The position numbers were made by a program, and so were the translations under genes. Shown piece after piece: positions 27,894-35,149 of a stretch of DNA of 64,000 nucleotides. The notes under the pieces are model-generated. The model was given only the letters and a program-made list of their open reading frames with translations. It had not been told where the DNA came from and ran no database searches. Numbering within the stretch: the first letter of the stretch is position 1; the number at the start of each line of letters is the position of its first letter. Source of the stretch: Geoglobus acetivorans (GTDB taxonomy: Archaea; Halobacteriota; Archaeoglobi; Archaeoglobales; Archaeoglobaceae); assembly GCF_000789255.1 (NCBI RefSeq), contig NZ_CP009552.1:1302001-1366000 (forward strand), written 5' to 3'.

Positions 27894-29122
27894 CTCCCCT
27901 CCCACCACCGCCACTCCTCTTCATCCTCAGCATCTCCAGAGTTCTCCTCTTCCCTCAGCTCTCTCTCAGCATCCTTTATTTTTGCACCAACGATGGACTC
28001 AACAAAGTCATCAACATCATCCAGCTTACCTGCAAGGAAAAGTTCCTTCAGTCTCAGCACCTCTTCAGCGATGTCCTCGTACCCGAATCCCGTGAGAATG
28101 CCTGCAATAACGTTCTTCTCAAGCCCTTTAACATCTTTCAGCGAAACATCAAGTGCCTGAAAGATTCCCCTTGAATAATCAACCTCTATCCTCAGAACGA
28201 GCGGGTCAAGAGTTTCTCGTGCAATTTTTTCAACCTTGTCCCTGTCAATGTTTGTCGAAGTTTTCAGTTTTATGTGCACAACCTCTCCCGAACTGCCTTT
28301 CATCTTAAGAAGCTCATCCCTCAACTGGGAATAGCTCCTGAACTCCACCTCAAAAGTTCTGAACACTCTCGGTTTGTAGAACATGCATTCATGCCTGTAC
28401 GACAGCTCACCGTCATACTCAACAACAAATATGCCTTTTTCAAATGAGAACTCAGAAATGTCACAGCTCTCCAGACTTCCGGGATTGAAGATGAAGTCAT
28501 CCTCAACATATTTCTTGTGTATGTGTCCAAGAGCCACATAATTTATGGTATCCCGGTAACCATACAGCTTCTCAGAACTGATACAGCCGTAAATGTTCAT
28601 GTAACCCTCAATCCCGAAATGAGACATGAAGATCGTAAAATCCCCCTTTTCCACGAGAGGCAGATAGTCCTCAAGAATTTTCTCGGTCAGCATACCGTAA
28701 TACTTCAGGCCATAAATCCTCGCATCACCCACATCGATGTGGCTCCCGCTCCTCCCATCCCATTCATCAAGGACAGGTTTCCCGTCCTGAAATGAGGGTT
28801 TCAGGTTTATCAGGTGTCCCTGAATGGTCAGATAATCCATCCAGGTAAACCTCTCCCTGAAATACGTTGAATCGTGATTGCCCTCCACAACTATGACCGG
28901 CACATCTGTTTTTTCCAGAACGGTCGTGGCCTGTGCGAGAGTTATCGGATCCATCTCGCTCTTCTTGTGAAACAGGTCTCCGGCAATGAGAATGAAGTCA
29001 ACCTTTTCCGAAATTGAAAATTCAACTGCTTTTTTGAAGGCCTGGGCAAAATCCAGCGCCCTGTTCTCACTACCATACTGCCGGTAGCCAAGGTGAACAT
29101 CAGCAAGATGGGCGAACTTCAC
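27890..29122 (-). CDS. mre11: DNA double-strand-break repair nuclease Mre11
   Basis: Manganese-dependent nuclease partner of Rad50. The start codon is GTG at 29122, preceded by a TATA-like TAAATATCC at 29143-29151. Of 410 residues, the phosphodiesterase motifs run in order: LADVHLGY (about 6-13), AGDLFHKK, VEGNHDST, MSHFGIEG and LGHIHKKY. The capping domain follows, and the C-terminal tail is very acidic then tryptophan-rich (GDAEDEEEWRWWEGR). First gene of the eight-gene overlapping repair operon running down to DUF190. Confidence 0.96.
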   Translation of the reverse strand: MKFAHLADVHLGYRQYGSENRALDFAQAFKKAVEFSISEKVDFILIAGDLFHKKSEMDPITLAQATTVLEKTDVPVIVVEGNHDSTYFRERFTWMDYLTIQGHLINLKPSFQDGKPVLDEWDGRSGSHIDVGDARIYGLKYYGMLTEKILEDYLPLVEKGDFTIFMSHFGIEGYMNIYGCISSEKLYGYRDTINYVALGHIHKKYVEDDFIFNPGSLESCDISEFSFEKGIFVVEYDGELSYRHECMFYKPRVFRTFEVEFRSYSQLRDELLKMKGSSGEVVHIKLKTSTNIDRDKVEKIARETLDPLVLRIEVDYSRGIFQALDVSLKDVKGLEKNVIAGILTGFGYEDIAEEVLRLKELFLAGKLDDVDDFVESIVGAKIKDAERELREEENSGDAEDEEEWRWWEGR

Positions 29123-29142
29123 AGAAAAAAGATTTGCAAGGG

Positions 29143-29151
29143 GATATTTAC
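29143..29151 (-). promoter_or_regulatory. TATA-like box of the mre11-rad50-nurA-herA operon
   Basis: On the minus strand the sequence TAAATATCC lies 20 nt before the mre11 GTG. The spacing fits a leaderless or nearly leaderless archaeal transcript. The 69 bp between mre11 and rps2 also hold an A/T-rich stretch after the rps2 stop that could end the upstream operon. Confidence 0.5.
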
Positions 29152-29191
29152 AGTTTCCCTTGTTGCGAATGTAATAATAAAACTTTATAGA

Positions 29192-29818
29192 TTAAATTTC
29201 TGCTTCAAAATCTTCAACACTGTACGTGAATTCCTTGAAACCTCTGTTCCTGAGCACCTCCCTTGCAAGAATCCAGTAAACAAGTGCCAGAGCTTTTCTG
29301 CCCTTGTTGTTTGTCGGAATTACAAAATCAACGTTTGCAAGGCTGTTGTTTGTATCGCAGAGCGCAACCACTGGGATACCGATGTCTGTGGCTTCCTCAA
29401 CAGCCTGTTTGTCAATGGCCGGGTCGGTAACGATGATGACGTCAGGCTCCCTGTATTCCTTGATTGCAGGATTCGTGAGCGTGCCGGGTACGAATCTCTC
29501 AATAACGTAGTCCGCTCCGGTAACCTTTGAGAACATAATCACCGGTTTCTGCCCGTACTGCCTCGCTGAGATCGCAAGAATCTTTGCTGGAGTGTACTTC
29601 GCCAGGAATTTTCCGGCAAGCTTCAGCCTCTCGTCAAGGATCCTGATGTCAAGAACGTAAAGCCCATCGGGTCTGACCTTGTATATGAACTTCTTCATAT
29701 CCCCGGTCTTTATCTGAGTCCCTATATGCACACCGGCCGCAAGGTACTCATCGGGAGGTACCAGGTATTCATATCCCTCCTCCGTTTCTCTCATCATGCT
29801 CTCTCTTTCCTTCACCAT
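29192..29818 (-). CDS. rps2: Small ribosomal subunit protein S2
   Basis: 30S subunit protein, 208 residues from ATG 29818; the GTG three codons earlier is less likely because a GGTGG ribosome-binding site in the enolase tail is properly spaced for the ATG. Motifs include [33 protein letters not shown]-like [24 protein letters not shown], and [22 protein letters not shown]. It is the last gene of the rpl18e-rps2 operon, 3 nt after the enolase stop codon starts. Confidence 0.95.
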
Positions 29819-29820
29819 TT

Positions 29821-31023
29821 TTACCACCTTATCTCAGCCATTATCGCGTCAATCATTTCCTCAATCCTGATGAGTTCATTGAGCTTTGAAATTCTCTCCC
29901 CCCCAACAACACCCGTCTTTATTAATGTTGCGTTGAATGCAACACCAATATGTGCCAGAGCTGGGTCTTCGCTTTCTCCACTTCTGTGAGACACAACAAC
30001 ATCCCAGTTCCTTGATTTTGCCAGTCGGATGGCATCAACAGTCTCAGAAAGCGTTCCAATCTGGTTCGGTTTGATCAGTACAGTATTAACCGATCCGTAT
30101 TCAATCGCCCTCTCAATCCTCCCGACATTTGTAACCAGCAGGTCATCTCCGCACACCATGGTTTTGACCTGCTTTGTCAGCTCAGCAAATCCCTCAAAGT
30201 CGTTCTCGTGGAGGGGGTCCTCAACATAGAGCAGACCGTATTTATCAACAAGCTCAGCTATGTAGGATATCTGCTCTTCCGGGGAGAGTTTCTTGTCCTT
30301 GTACACATAATGGCTCCCATCCCATAGCTCGGTTGCTGCAACGTCAACACCAATTCTAACCTCAACCCCGTACTCATCTTCAACCCTGTCTATTGCAGCC
30401 TGCAGGATTTCGAAGGCCTGTTCGTCAGTAATCTGGGCAGCCCATGCACCCTCATCACCCTTCGCTGCAAAGATGTTCTTCTCCCTGAATATCTTTTTCA
30501 GTTCAGCGTGAACGCGAGTGTTGATGAACTGGGATTCAAAAAAGCTTTCTGCACCAACAGGAATGATCAGAAACTCCTGAATGCTCGTAGACCCTGCAGC
30601 ATGTGCTCCACCACCGATAACATTTCCAAGCGGATACGGCACAACCTCTGCTGCCACCCCCCCAAGATACTGGAAAAGGGGAATACCAAGAGCATTTGCA
30701 GCAGCTTTTGCAGAAGCGATGCTTGCGGTTATCGCGAAATTGCCACCAATGTTGGAGAAATTATCCGTGCCGTCTTCATCCCTGAGGGTCCTGTCGATTT
30801 CTCTCTGATCAAAAATACTGATGCCGATAAGTGCTCTCGATACCTTTTCCTCTATTTCCTCGATTCTGAAAGGGTCAACGGCAACGGCCTCCTCACTACC
30901 TGTTGACGCTCCACTCGGAGCTATTGCCGAGCCAGAACTTGCCTCGGTGAACACCTCACACTCAACAGTCGGATTTCCCCGGCTGTCAAACACGATTCTG
31001 TACTGAACATCCTCAATTATCAT
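29821..31023 (-). CDS. eno: Enolase
   Basis: Interconverts 2-phosphoglycerate and phosphoenolpyruvate in glycolysis/gluconeogenesis. The 400 residues show the N-terminal [11 protein letters not shown] and [14 protein letters not shown], metal ligands and catalytic residues in [14 protein letters not shown] and [10 protein letters not shown], the catalytic Lys in [10 protein letters not shown], and [20 protein letters not shown] near the end. The length is slightly below the roughly 425 of bacterial forms. It lies in the ribosomal/RNA polymerase operon, as in many Archaea. Confidence 0.97.
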
Positions 31024-31036
31024 TTACTGCATCACC

Positions 31037-31258
31037 TCAAAAAAGATCATATCTCTGAAGCCAGACAAAGGCGTTTCTCCGTCTCTTCACGGTTATGGGT
31101 ATCGCCCCTCTTTCAAACTCATCCCTGGCGATATCAATTGGATGTCTCGACGGAGTATCGATTAAAACAGGAGCACCCATGGCTATCTGCAATGCCCTTG
31201 CACCAATTATCCTTGCCCTCTCAAACCTTGTATATTCGAAGGGAAACTCTTTTTTCAA
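31037..31258 (-). CDS. rpoK: DNA-directed RNA polymerase subunit K (Rpo6)
   Basis: Small RNA polymerase subunit, omega/RPB6 homologue, that holds the largest subunit. The 73 residues contain the family core [26 protein letters not shown] and [21 protein letters not shown]. The start appears to be TTG 31258, preceded by a GGGGTGATG ribosome-binding site; no in-frame ATG precedes the core. It follows the tRNA-Pro gene by 24 nt and is 13 nt upstream of eno. Confidence 0.95.
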
Positions 31259-31282
31259 ACATCATCACCCCTTTAGGGAAAG

Positions 31283-31357
31283 TGGGGCCGCCGAGATTTG
31301 AACTCGGGTCACGGCGCCCCGAACGCCGCAGGATATACCAGGCTACCCCACGGCCCC
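31283..31357 (-). tRNA. tRNA-Pro (anticodon CGG)
   Basis: 75 nt on the minus strand. The acceptor stem pairs GGGGCCG with CGGCCCC before the discriminator A. The T arm carries GAGTTCAAATCTC. The anticodon stem CGGCG/CGCCG encloses the loop TTCGGGG, so the anticodon is CGG. CCA is not encoded. Its 5' end overlaps the last 15 nt of rpoN, and it lies inside the ribosomal operon between rpoN and rpoK. Confidence 0.95.
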
Positions 31358-31543
31358 ATGATATCTCGCAAATTCCTTAATAACTGACTTGTAGGTCAGA
31401 AACATTCTCCTGCAGCAGTATTTCTCAATTCCAAGCTCGTCAAGAGCTTCCTTCGGGGATTTTCCTGAATCAACCAGCGATTTATAATCCTCATATTTGT
31501 GAGCTATCACAGCCCCACAGGTGAAGCATCTGACAGGAAACAT
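31343..31543 (-). CDS. rpoN: DNA-directed RNA polymerase subunit N (Rpo10)
   Basis: RPB10 homologue, a 66-residue zinc-bundle subunit of RNA polymerase. The ligands are Cys 6 and Cys 9 in PVRCFTCGAVI and the adjacent pair Cys 43-Cys 44 in KYCCRRM, giving the CX2C...CC pattern. The last codons (HGAVG and TAG) lie inside the tRNA-Pro gene, so the protein end and the tRNA acceptor/D-stem share 15 nt. The protein length is normal, so the overlap does not truncate it. Confidence 0.95.
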   Translation of the reverse strand: MFPVRCFTCGAVIAHKYEDYKSLVDSGKSPKEALDELGIEKYCCRRMFLTYKSVIKEFARYHGAVG

Positions 31544-31550
31544 GAAAAAA

Positions 31551-31949
31551 TCACCTGTATGAGGTCTGCCTCCTCTTTCTTGCTCCTCTACCGCCCTGTT
31601 TCTTCGGTTCCTTCCTCCTCACATCGTTAACAAGCAGAGTTCTGTCATACTCAATGAAGGCCCTCTTAAGCTCAGGATCGCCGCTGAATTCGAAAAGGGC
31701 TCTGGCTATAGCGGTTCTTGCCGCTTCCGCCTGACCCATCATTCCACCGCCCTCAACCTTGACATCAATATCAACCTGATTCACAAGGTCTTTCGCAATG
31801 ATTACCGGCTCCAGAATCTTGAGTCTCACCATCTCTGGCTGTACAATTTCCACGGGAACTTTATTAACCCTGATTCTGCCCCTGCCCGGTCTCGCAGTGG
31901 CTCTTGCGACAGCAGTCTTTCTTTTACCGCTTGTTACAACAATCTTCAT
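31551..31949 (-). CDS. rps9: Small ribosomal subunit protein S9
   Basis: 30S protein whose C-terminal tail reaches the P-site tRNA. The 132 residues begin with [28 protein letters not shown], have the [21 protein letters not shown] core and end in the basic [21 protein letters not shown] tail with the conserved terminal Arg. It overlaps rpl13 by 4 nt and is 7 nt upstream of rpoN. Confidence 0.96.
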
Positions 31950-32419
31950 GCTCTCACCTCGAAACCGAGATACCTGCTAACATCACCCAGATACACATAT
32001 TTCTCTGTCTTGGATACCTTTTCGTACAGAGCTGCATCCACCTTCTCGAACTCCCTGTCCTTGAGCTGATCCGGAACACCCATGAAAACCCTGAGCCTCC
32101 TGTAGGCATCCCTGCCCCTTCTGCTCTTCCATGGGAGCATGCCCCTCACAGTTCTTTTGAATATCCTCTCCGGATGCCTCGGGAAGTATGGGCCCTTCTC
32201 CTTGCTTCCCCTGTCATATTTTTCCTTATACCTTTCGAGGACATTCTCGGGGCTACCTGTAATTATGGCCTTCTCGGCATTCACGACAACGATCTTCTCC
32301 CCCTCAAGAAGCTTTTTGGCAATGTAACTTGAAAGCCTCCCGAGAATGTGACCATCAGCATCGATGATCCTGTAATCCTCACCCAGAGTTTTCAGGACTC
32401 TCTCAACATTCACACTCAT
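31946..32419 (-). CDS. rpl13: Large ribosomal subunit protein L13
   Basis: Early-binding 50S protein. The 157 residues contain [20 protein letters not shown] and [28 protein letters not shown], then [36 protein letters not shown], all family hallmarks. It overlaps rps9 by 4 nt and follows rpl18e by 12 nt, the conserved archaeal order. Confidence 0.96.
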
Positions 32420-32431
32420 AAATCCAACACC

Positions 32432-32809
32432 TCAGACTATAATTCTCAAGTTCTTTCCTTCCGGATTCTCCCTAAGCGCATCCTGAATCGAAAGGCACTT
32501 CCCACCGGCAGCTTCTATTTTTGCCCTTGCACTGTCACTGAATCTGAATGCTGCGACTGTTACAGGCTTGCTTATCTCTCCCCCTCCAAGGACCTTTCCA
32601 GGTACGACTGCCATCTCCCCGTCATTAACATATCTTTCAAGTTTTCCAACGTTAACCTCAGCGTAATTTCTGAGGGGTTTTGCAAGCCTCTCTGCGAGTT
32701 CCTTCCACACCTTAGCCTCCTTTTCAGCGGATGCACTCAGCAAATCATCTATCAGCCTGACAAGGTTCGGATTGCTTTTTCTCCTCTGCAATCTTCTAAT
32801 CCTGCTCAT
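32432..32809 (-). CDS. rpl18e: Large ribosomal subunit protein L18e
   Basis: 50S protein related to bacterial L15. The 125 residues have the basic start [46 protein letters not shown] in the middle and the glycine-rich [35 protein letters not shown] near the end. First gene of the operon leading to rps2. A TATA-like CTTTTAAATAA lies about 40-50 nt upstream on the minus strand (about 32850). Confidence 0.96.
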
Positions 32810-33050
32810 TTTTCATCACCGCAATGCTGCTTAGCATGATAGCATGGTTATTTAAAAGTATCTCCACAGATGGGGTTTCGTAATATAAAAATTGCTGTTG
32901 AAGAACGATGTCATCAGGACACTTAAAACATTCAAATGCCTACCTACAGAGAAGTTTCCCGGGAATAACCTCTGATATAAATCCATTTCAGGCACCACAG
33001 CCAATACCAGCACCACAAGATTAAATACCTTCCCCACCACCACAGTAACG
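32810..33050. promoter_or_regulatory. Divergent intergenic region between rpl18e and a PfkB kinase
   Basis: The 241-bp gap holds two promoter-like elements. On the minus strand a CTTTTAAATAA box near 32850 serves rpl18e. On the plus strand a GATTAAATACC box near 33018-33028 lies about 22-32 nt before the kinase ATG. No tRNA, repeat or further open frame of interest is visible between them. Confidence 0.5.
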
Positions 33051-33959
33051 ATGATATCTGGAATTGGACCGGCTCTCGTAGACAGGGTGTGCATCATAGA
33101 TGAGTATCCCGCAAGGGGCGACCAGGCCATTGTCAAGATGGTCGAAAAGCATGCCGGAGGAGCCGCAGGTAACGTCATATACGGCCTCGCAACCTTTGGG
33201 ATCAGAACAAGATTCTATTCGACAGTTGGAAAGGATGAAGATGGCCTCTTTTACAAGCAGGAGATGGAAAAGGCAGGCGTGGAATGCATCTTTCACACGG
33301 TGGATAGTGAAACGGGGAGGGTGGACGTTTATGTTGACAGAGGAGGAGAGAGAACCTTCTTCGTTTTCCCGGGTGCTGCCGGGGAGTTCCGCCCATTCCT
33401 AACCGAGACTCACTACGCCTGGGGGGAATACTTTTACCTTGACCCATTTCCGTTCGAGGGCAGCCTCGCAGCACACATTGAAATCGCTGAAAAAGCAAAA
33501 AAACATGGCAAGAAGGTAATTCTCAATCCCGGTCACCCCTATTCCCGGCTGGGCCTGGAGAAAATCAGAGGCCTTCTCAAACACACAGACATGGTGTTCA
33601 TATCAAGCCACGAGTACGAGTTGCTTGAAGGTATAGAGGACTGCGTGAGTGCGACAGTCATTACTCTCGGAAAGGAAGGCAGCATGGCGCTGATAGATGG
33701 GGAAGAATACCGCGCAAGGGCATTCGAAGTCAGAGTTGCCGACAGCACAGGTGCGGGCGACGCATTCGCAGCCGGATTCATCTACGCCATGCTGAAAGGC
33801 TATGGCATCAAAATTTGCCTCAAAGCAGGAAACTTCACAGCGGCATTTAATGTCCAGAAAATAGGGGCCAGGAATTTTCCCGAAAAAATTGAACTGGATG
33901 CGTTTCTCGAAAATCAGTCAAACATGTCGAGGGACGATGAAAGCAGCCTGTCCTCATAA
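33051..33959 (+). CDS. PfkB/ribokinase-family carbohydrate or nucleoside kinase
   Basis: ATP-dependent sugar or nucleoside kinase. The 302 residues carry the N-terminal PfkB signature region (KHAGGAAGNVIYGLATFG, about 33-50) and the C-terminal catalytic signature DSTGAGDAFAAGFIYAML (about 228-245), with the base Asp in GAGD. ITLGKEGSMALIDG is the nucleotide-binding segment. The 3' end overlaps the converging cdc6 gene by 46 bp. The substrate cannot be told from motifs alone. Confidence 0.9.
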   Translation: MISGIGPALVDRVCIIDEYPARGDQAIVKMVEKHAGGAAGNVIYGLATFGIRTRFYSTVGKDEDGLFYKQEMEKAGVECIFHTVDSETGRVDVYVDRGGERTFFVFPGAAGEFRPFLTETHYAWGEYFYLDPFPFEGSLAAHIEIAEKAKKHGKKVILNPGHPYSRLGLEKIRGLLKHTDMVFISSHEYELLEGIEDCVSATVITLGKEGSMALIDGEEYRARAFEVRVADSTGAGDAFAAGFIYAMLKGYGIKICLKAGNFTAAFNVQKIGARNFPEKIELDAFLENQSNMSRDDESSLSS

Positions 33960-35149
33960 TCTCTGAGAACCTCGAATCGATAGTCGTCAAGAATTGCCTC
34001 CTTGACAGCATCCATTGGTACATCGAGCCTCATCTCTCTTGTTCGCCCGTATCTGCCCTTGGAAATTATGATCGAGTTGATTATTCCAAGCATGTCAAGC
34101 TCCGAAAGCAGGTCGCTCACCCTTCTCTGGGTGAGGACATCCATTCCAACCTTCTTGCATAGCGTTTTGTAAACTGCATAAACCTCTCCGGTTATGAACT
34201 TCCTCTTGCCATTTTTGTGCAGAAGAATCATGGAATAAAGCACAATCTTGCTCTGATTTGGAAGGGTTCTCACAACTTCAACTATGTTATCTCTTTCCAT
34301 CTTCTTTACGGCCTCTCTTACATGTTCCTTTGTTACCTTTTCTTCCTCCCTCGATTCGGCAATCTCAGCACTGATTCTGAGCAGATCGAGGGCCTTCCTT
34401 GCATCTCCATGCTCATGAGCTGCAAGAGCGGCACAGTAGGGAATCACACCCTCGTCAAGAACTCCATCGTGGAAAGCAAGCTCCGCCCTCTGGGCCAGAA
34501 TGTCCTCAAGCTGCGTTGCGTTGTAGGGCGGAAATACAATTTCCTCCTCACTGAGAGAGCTTAAAACCCTGGGATCGAGAAAGTTCTTGAACTTCAGATC
34601 GTTTGTTATCCCTATAAGGCTCACTCTCGCATTTTTCAGTTCAGAGTTGATTCTCGAAAGGTTGTAGAGGACGTCATCCCCTTTCTTAACGAGCTTGTCG
34701 ATTTCATCCAGGACGATTATTACAGTCTGATCCCTGCCATCTATTGCCTCCCGGACCTCCTCATAAACCTGATCCGTTGGCCACCCCGTCATCGGCACGT
34801 TCCTGCCGAGGGCCTTCGCGAGTGTTGCGAGAACCCTGTACTGTGTATCTATAATCTCGCAGTTCAGGTAATGCACATAGCAGTGGACGTTCATCTTTCT
34901 GCTTGCCTCTTCAAGCTGCTTACCCACAAATTTCACAGTTGCAGTCTTTCCGGTACCGGTTTTCCCATAAATGAGGATGTTTGAGGGAGTCTCACCACTT
35001 AAAGCTGGAAGAAGGATTGATGCTATGTTCTCAATCTGCTCTTTTCGGTGAGGCAGGTACTCAGGGGTGTAAGAGTGCCTCAACACGTCTCTGTTTTTGA
35101 AAATCCTGTTCTTTCTGAGCATTTTCTCAAAAATATTACTGTCAATCAT
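33914..35149 (-). CDS. cdc6: Orc1/Cdc6 replication initiator
   Basis: AAA+ initiator that binds origin DNA and loads MCM. About 411 residues from ATG 35149 (an alternative start lies two codons earlier). Walker A is ILIYGKTGTGKTATVKF (about 58-74), Walker B VIIVLDEIDKLVKKG, sensor I region VSLIGITNDLKF and sensor II in GDARKALDLLRISAEIAE. A C-terminal winged helix covers about 300-400 (YAVYKTLCKKVGMDVLTQRRVSDLLSELDMLG). The 111 bp upstream may contain an origin. Confidence 0.95.
   Translation of the reverse strand: MIDSNIFEKMLRKNRIFKNRDVLRHSYTPEYLPHRKEQIENIASILLPALSGETPSNILIYGKTGTGKTATVKFVGKQLEEASRKMNVHCYVHYLNCEIIDTQYRVLATLAKALGRNVPMTGWPTDQVYEEVREAIDGRDQTVIIVLDEIDKLVKKGDDVLYNLSRINSELKNARVSLIGITNDLKFKNFLDPRVLSSLSEEEIVFPPYNATQLEDILAQRAELAFHDGVLDEGVIPYCAALAAHEHGDARKALDLLRISAEIAESREEEKVTKEHVREAVKKMERDNIVEVVRTLPNQSKIVLYSMILLHKNGKRKFITGEVYAVYKTLCKKVGMDVLTQRRVSDLLSELDMLGIINSIIISKGRYGRTREMRLDVPMDAVKEAILDDYRFEVLRDYEDRLLSSSLDMFD

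Follow-up and report, generated by a model that had tools for sequence, protein, structure and literature searches.

Can one RNA serve both as the message for a protein and as the precursor of a tRNA when the stop codon of the protein gene lies inside the tRNA? The question is raised by a locus in the window, i.e., the whole 64,000-nucleotide stretch of DNA analyzed here, which is part of a complete 1.86-Mb archaeal genome with Geoglobus and other members of the heat-loving family Archaeoglobaceae as its near relatives. A preliminary description of this DNA had claimed that rpoN, which encodes RNA polymerase subunit N, reads 15 nt into a tRNA-Pro gene on the same strand and that its last four codons and stop lie within the acceptor and D arm of that tRNA.

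Anatomy of the rpoN/tRNA-Pro(CGG) overlap

The features of the junction are as follows.

31343..31543, minus strand: rpoN (RNA polymerase subunit N / Rpo10), 66 aa, TAG stop at 31345-31343 (ORF; PF01194)
31283..31357, minus strand: tRNA-Pro(CGG), no encoded CCA (ARAGORN; RF00005, 50 bits)
31343..31357, minus strand: overlap of 15 nt, the last four rpoN codons (GAVG) and the stop being tRNA nt 1-15 (sequence)
31343..31345, minus strand: rpoN UAG stop, identical with tRNA nt 13-15 (N13-A14-R15) (sequence)

Both claims were borne out. The rpoN product matches PF01194 with 97 bits against a cut-off of 26.9, which identifies it as RpoN / Rpo10. ARAGORN places the tRNA at 31282-31357 with anticodon CGG, and the Rfam match to RF00005 spans 31283-31357 and all model positions 1-71, i.e., the full length of the model; this match came from a laxer scan of a short stretch (cut-off, 29 bits), and a default Rfam scan of 29000-34000 at the gathering threshold returned no matches. 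In the genome-wide tRNA list, this is the only tRNA with the CGG anticodon. The rpoN gene ends with TAT CAT followed by the shared bases GGG GCC GTG GGG TAG (Gly-Ala-Val-Gly-stop), the tRNA starting at the first G of GGG GCC, so that the overlap covers the acceptor 5' strand, U8-G9, and the start of the D arm. The preliminary description had further placed the RNase P cut just before the rpoN stop. The cut does precede the stop, and its expected position can be refined to the boundary between codons 62 and 63, 12 nt 5' of the stop codon.

Among the 46 tRNAs of the genome, tRNA-Pro(CGG) is the only one to share at least 10 nt with a protein gene whose ORF is recognized by a family model. Two other ORFs, L083 (199 aa) and L063 (67 aa), were considered as further overlaps between coding sequences and tRNAs and were taken as chance ORFs because they had no Pfam match and no convincing PHROG match.

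Distribution in Archaeoglobaceae and outgroups

We gathered rpoN loci from relatives and measured the positions of the stop and of the tRNA start by script. The gene was found in 49 of the 53 sampled Archaeoglobaceae genomes; it was not matched in four (G030, G271, G281, and G290), whose assemblies are 73-79% complete. In all 49, the rpoN stop lies inside tRNA-Pro, at nt 13-15 in 47 genomes (15-nt overlap) and at nt 8-10 in the remaining two (10-nt overlap), both of which belong to genus g11 and have a longer and different tail. The C-terminal tails read GAVG in 46 genomes, GAVR in one, and EEGP in two. A mis-annotation or sequencing error, with rpoN truly stopping before the tRNA, would be hard to reconcile with the agreement of every family assembly that contains rpoN, none of which has an in-frame rpoN stop upstream of the tRNA, and we give it practically no credence. 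The reading of rpoN into tRNA-Pro is real, exceeds what chance would give, and extends well beyond the window, and the 49 family overlaps represent one inheritance rather than 49 independent events.

Outside the family, the 5' end of tRNA-Pro lies within 200 nt of the rpoN stop in 49 of 52 measured loci, which were partly chosen for having the tRNA. The two genes abut exactly in 17 of these 49, are separated by 1 to 124 nt in 31, and overlap by 1 nt in one; no tRNA-Pro was seen near rpoN in the other three loci (L044, L050, and L054). A less biased count comes from a strict rpoN-to-tRNA-Pro pattern, which 146 of the 243 genomes of the phylum outside the family match. Judged from these loci, the close pairing of rpoN with tRNA-Pro(CGG) is of old date and found in many lineages; the overlap proper characterizes one family.

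Several individual loci have peculiarities of their own. The single 1-nt overlap (L202 in G204, family f31) is independent, the G of the rpoN TAG being tRNA nt 1, and its sister L201 abuts exactly. In three outgroup loci (L046, L048, and L135), the tRNA-Pro(CGG) that follows rpoN carries an intron of 24-32 nt, and rpoN ends either directly at the tRNA or 2 nt short of it. Within the family, the incomplete genome G007 has on one contig (C123; L150:730-870) a decayed second rpoN 3' end with a tRNA-Pro start, and its intact rpoN/tRNA-Pro copy lies on another contig; the D loop of its intact-looking tRNA-Pro(CGG) (L034; 71 nt by ARAGORN) is unusually short, which is either real or an assembly error. 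Elsewhere, in a provirus-like run of tail genes (L158, G000:C1:725021-728094; Phage_tail_S at 38.1 bits and DUF3383 just below its cut-off), a 173-aa ORF ends in a TAG that overlaps a tRNA-Gln(UUG)-like gene by 2 nt; this tRNA gene has no recognizable promoter (-2.3 bits).

Origin of the overlap and ready-made stops in tRNAs

In many outgroups, the junction reads CAA or CAG, then TGA, then directly GGGG. The ancestor of Archaeoglobaceae probably underwent a small deletion that removed the stop of rpoN itself, after which the in-frame UAG in the D arm of the adjacent tRNA-Pro(CGG) would have served instead. Where the two genes abut (CAA TGA followed by GGGG), losing 3 nt yields the family arrangement, G-(A/V)-V-G followed by UAG. 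Because the two nearest sister groups have rpoN-tRNA gaps of 6 nt and 2-3 nt rather than 0, the exact founding deletion and the ancestral junction are uncertain.

The tRNA can provide a stop because nt 13-15 read U-A-R whenever U13 is present, and, since U8, A14, and R15 are near-universal in tRNAs, many tRNAs hold ready-made stops in two of the three phases. In the genome of the window, 25 of the 46 tRNAs have a stop at nt 13-15 in the phase of rpoN and 23 have one at nt 8-10 in the next phase; in the third phase, any stop within about 30 nt occurs in only three. The two versions of the overlap in Archaeoglobaceae use exactly the two stop-rich phases.

Operon context and the search for a tRNA promoter

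The preliminary description had held that the tRNA and rpoN compete for one transcript unless they come from separate ones, and the neighborhood of the junction bears directly on this point.

32884..32897, minus strand: candidate operon promoter, BRE/TATA-like CAGCAATTTTTATA, 9.6 bits (PWM scan)
32432..32809, minus strand: rpl18e, first gene of the run (PF00828/PF17135)
31946..32419, minus strand: rpl13 (PF00572, 78 bits)
31551..31949, minus strand: rps9 (PF00380, 133 bits)
31545..31550, minus strand: T6 tract between the rps9 stop and the rpoN start (sequence)
31264..31271, minus strand: GGGGTGAT, ribosome-binding-like site for rpoK just past the tRNA 3' end (sequence)
31037..31258, minus strand: rpoK (Rpo6), TTG start, next operon gene (PF01192, 36.8 bits)
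29821..31023, minus strand: eno (enolase), downstream operon gene (PF00113/PF03952)

The gene order on the minus strand is thus rpl18e, rpl13, rps9, rpoN, tRNA-Pro(CGG), rpoK, and eno, and the next ORF after eno (29827-29192) is a putative rps2, judged by eye. The genes of this S9 operon are tightly spaced, and the promoter match 5' of rpl18e (32897-32884) is both the best in the 1.6 kb before the tRNA and the only strong one in the operon. Most family loci have a site like GGGGTGAT or AGGTGAT on the 3' side of the tRNA, from a few to about 15 bases away; as the rpoK site follows so closely on the tRNA 3' end, an rpoK message released by tRNase Z would have a short leader.

To score candidate tRNA promoters, a 14-base motif (consensus CCAAAATTTTTATA) was learned from the 45 other tRNAs of the genome, in which it usually starts about 40 nt upstream. 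This usual archaeal arrangement, with a BRE/TATA-like signal at that distance, was not found at tRNA-Pro(CGG), which scores 2.7 bits against a leave-one-out median of 9.4 for the other 45; 24.9% of random 60-mers from the window score as high or higher. Because 5 of the 45 other tRNAs score lower still, a low score is no proof that a promoter is absent. In the family as a whole, the in-register scores have a median of 0.6 bits, compared with 10.0 for the other tRNAs of this genome with the full matrix. As a control, the same matrix was applied to 15 tRNAs in each of two other family genomes and gave at least 6 bits for 10 and 12 of them, respectively; the 30 tRNAs examined were among the best-scoring of 92 found. 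A TTATTAA at -26 to -20, TATA-like by eye, was set aside; its distance from the tRNA is shorter than that of the motif in other tRNAs, and it is not conserved.

The alternative is that a promoter inside rpoN makes the tRNA and that the rpoN mRNA either runs through the tRNA or ends by itself, with no competition between the two products. In-register BRE/TATA-like matches of at least 6 bits occur in 5 of the 49 family genomes (L234, 10.8; L237, 8.4; L235, 8.2; L029, 7.0; L238, 6.4 bits), four of them in the A+T-rich genus g10, and lineage-specific tRNA promoters with separate transcripts are possible in those five. Moreover, internal start sites close to the 3' ends of genes are frequent in Thermococcus kodakarensis, for which a tRNA promoter is also depicted next to rpoN (PMC4247193); this too counts against a shared transcript in the present case. 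However, no own promoter for tRNA-Pro(CGG) is recognizable in the genome of the window and no such element is conserved in the family, and an uncut rpoN mRNA reading through the junction would still hold a foldable tRNA, which RNase P should cut. Separate transcripts thus seem improbable to us. A separate tRNA promoter inside rpoN would have contradicted the preliminary description; that the motif scan found no candidate for one in this genome supports one shared transcript and hence an either/or fate for each RNA molecule. The interpretation in the preliminary description is thus partly supported: a shared transcript is probable for the genome of the window and is qualified by the promoter-like matches in the five relatives. 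Judging by gene spacing and promoter scores, tRNA-Pro(CGG) is most likely made only from a polycistronic rpl18e-rpl13-rps9-rpoN-tRNA-rpoK-eno transcript.

Probable order of translation and tRNA processing

We consider it probable that the overlap was inherited within the S9 operon after a founding deletion, that rpoN and the tRNA share a transcript, that translation comes before the RNase P cut, and that rpoN is nonstop after it. Co-transcription, the order of events, cutting, the nonstop product, and the competition are what we infer from the genomic arrangement. Each operon RNA may serve either as a full rpoN message or as a source of the tRNA. While nt 1-15 of the tRNA are still unfolded, ribosomes translating rpoN would pass into them and terminate at nt 13-15; a ribosome at that stop would cover the tRNA start, which should delay folding and cutting. 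Once ribosomes leave, the tRNA would fold and be cut by RNase P at nt 1 and by tRNase Z at its 3' end. The cut rpoN message would end on a complete sense codon without a stop and would then be spent, and ribosomes still on it would need rescue, presumably by archaeal Pelota. Genes for both the RNase P RNA (192.6 bits) and Pelota (413.5 bits) are present in the genome.

If RNase P cuts the shared RNA, it follows from the sequence that the cut rpoN mRNA would be nonstop, as proposed for selB-selC, and so translation must come first. A cut message would still encode the whole conserved protein, as outgroup RpoN ends at about the same place; lacking a stop, it could no longer yield full RpoN with normal release, which would be made only before the cut. 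In many family loci, the last codon before the tRNA encodes His (CAT in 25 and CAC in 3), a skew that exceeds the expectation from rpoN His codons and perhaps reflects a preference for U directly before the RNase P cut.

Comparison with known systems

The closest precedent is the selB-selC overlap known from Alphaproteobacteria, Gammaproteobacteria, and Nitrospirae, for which tRNA processing was proposed to give a nonstop mRNA, making tRNA and protein alternatives (Mukai 2021, PMC8124441). The two systems are alike in that a protein gene runs into the following tRNA gene on the same strand and shares bases with it, and the selB stop of Dyella/Luteibacter lies inside the tRNA at a conserved position, as that of rpoN does. 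They differ in that SelB is the own partner of its tRNA, whereas RpoN is an unrelated RNA polymerase subunit encoded in an archaeal ribosomal operon. Further, the selC tRNA is usually wholly nested in the ORF, whereas rpoN reads only tRNA nt 1-15 (or 1-10) and, in the 15-nt version, builds its stop from the D arm. Some selB-selC lineages have lost the overlap, whereas no loss was seen among the 49 Archaeoglobaceae genomes with rpoN. The rpoN case is thus a different, partial, archaeal version. The same paper cites a mitochondrial case, the cox1/tRNA-Lys overlap of Armadillidium.

The S9 operon itself has been studied in other archaea. Methanococcus maripaludis has the same rps9-rpoN-rpoK arrangement, in which transcription of rpoN and rpoK is lower than that of the ribosomal protein genes; its limiter is a terminator before rpoN, the loss of which slows growth (PMC10450193), and the passages on this terminator name no tRNA at the locus. 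By likeness to this case, the T6 tract before rpoN in the window is possibly a weak internal terminator. A T run of at least 5 precedes rpoN in only 12 of the 49 loci, which gives no clear sign of a terminator conserved across the family; where the rpoN match starts at residue 2, the stretch counted is not surely intergenic.

In mitochondria, tRNA excision sets mRNA ends in a polycistronic transcript, and partial stops can be completed by polyadenylation. In contrast, in the 47 genomes with the 15-nt overlap, the rpoN cut falls between two codons and leaves an intact sense codon at the end (the codon is CAT in 25 of the 49 genomes with rpoN), so that no stop is completed and the arrangement is not mitochondrial punctuation. 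In Haloarcula, a tRNA-Leu of the S9 operon was reportedly found by Kromer and Arndt in 1991 to be co-transcribed with the L13, S9, and enolase genes; that tRNA is said not to be the one found here and to sit at the opposite end of the operon, and we know of no overlap between tRNA and protein gene there.

Does the overlap limit RpoN?

The competition may be without effect if translation of rpoN is complete by the time the tRNA folds. The overlap would then be a frozen accident on a shared transcript, with rpoN translation always ending before the tRNA is folded or cut, nothing limited, and the overlap persisting only because the tRNA bases are fixed and the tetrapeptide tail is harmless. This is the preferred explanation minus the competition, so the two are not exclusive, and we rate its chances at a little under even. 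The tail is nearly invariant across the family because its bases are tRNA, and RpoN without the tail ends where outgroup RpoN ends. Synonymous variation near the rpoN 3' end is 0.86 of expectation, compared with 0.95 and 0.90 elsewhere in rpoN, a reduction so slight that it gives no sign of an extra conserved element; a hidden element at the rpoN 3' end was accordingly rejected, the signal being weak. However, an upstream stop has been regained in none of the 49 family genomes, while one substitution would create a stop in the codon adjoining the tRNA in 14 of 47 and in one of the last three codons in 36 of 47. Because the genomes are related and the residues may matter to the protein, the missing regain is only suggestive.

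A regulatory reading would make the tRNA a dosage limiter acting through RNA processing, with RNase P retiring each rpoN message once it has been translated one or a few times and keeping RpoN low. A dosage role is plausible in that the M. maripaludis terminator keeps rpoN and rpoK low; for the overlap in Archaeoglobaceae we hold it doubtful, and the frozen accident more likely. If true, the limiter would tie RpoN, an assembly-platform subunit, to tRNA output and hold it low compared with the ribosomal proteins made from the same RNA, and the tRNA overlap would do in Archaeoglobaceae what the internal terminator does in Methanococcus.

A search of the open-access literature, mostly of titles and the beginnings of abstracts, found no earlier report of the rpoN/tRNA-Pro overlap. 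The locus would provide a chromosomal, family-wide archaeal case in which a tRNA contains the stop codon of a gene for an RNA polymerase subunit. If RNase P excises the tRNA, that copy of the rpoN message should lose its stop, which is borrowed from the tRNA gene. Archaeoglobaceae therefore offer a natural test of the order in which translation and RNase P cutting proceed on one RNA and of how archaea handle nonstop messages.
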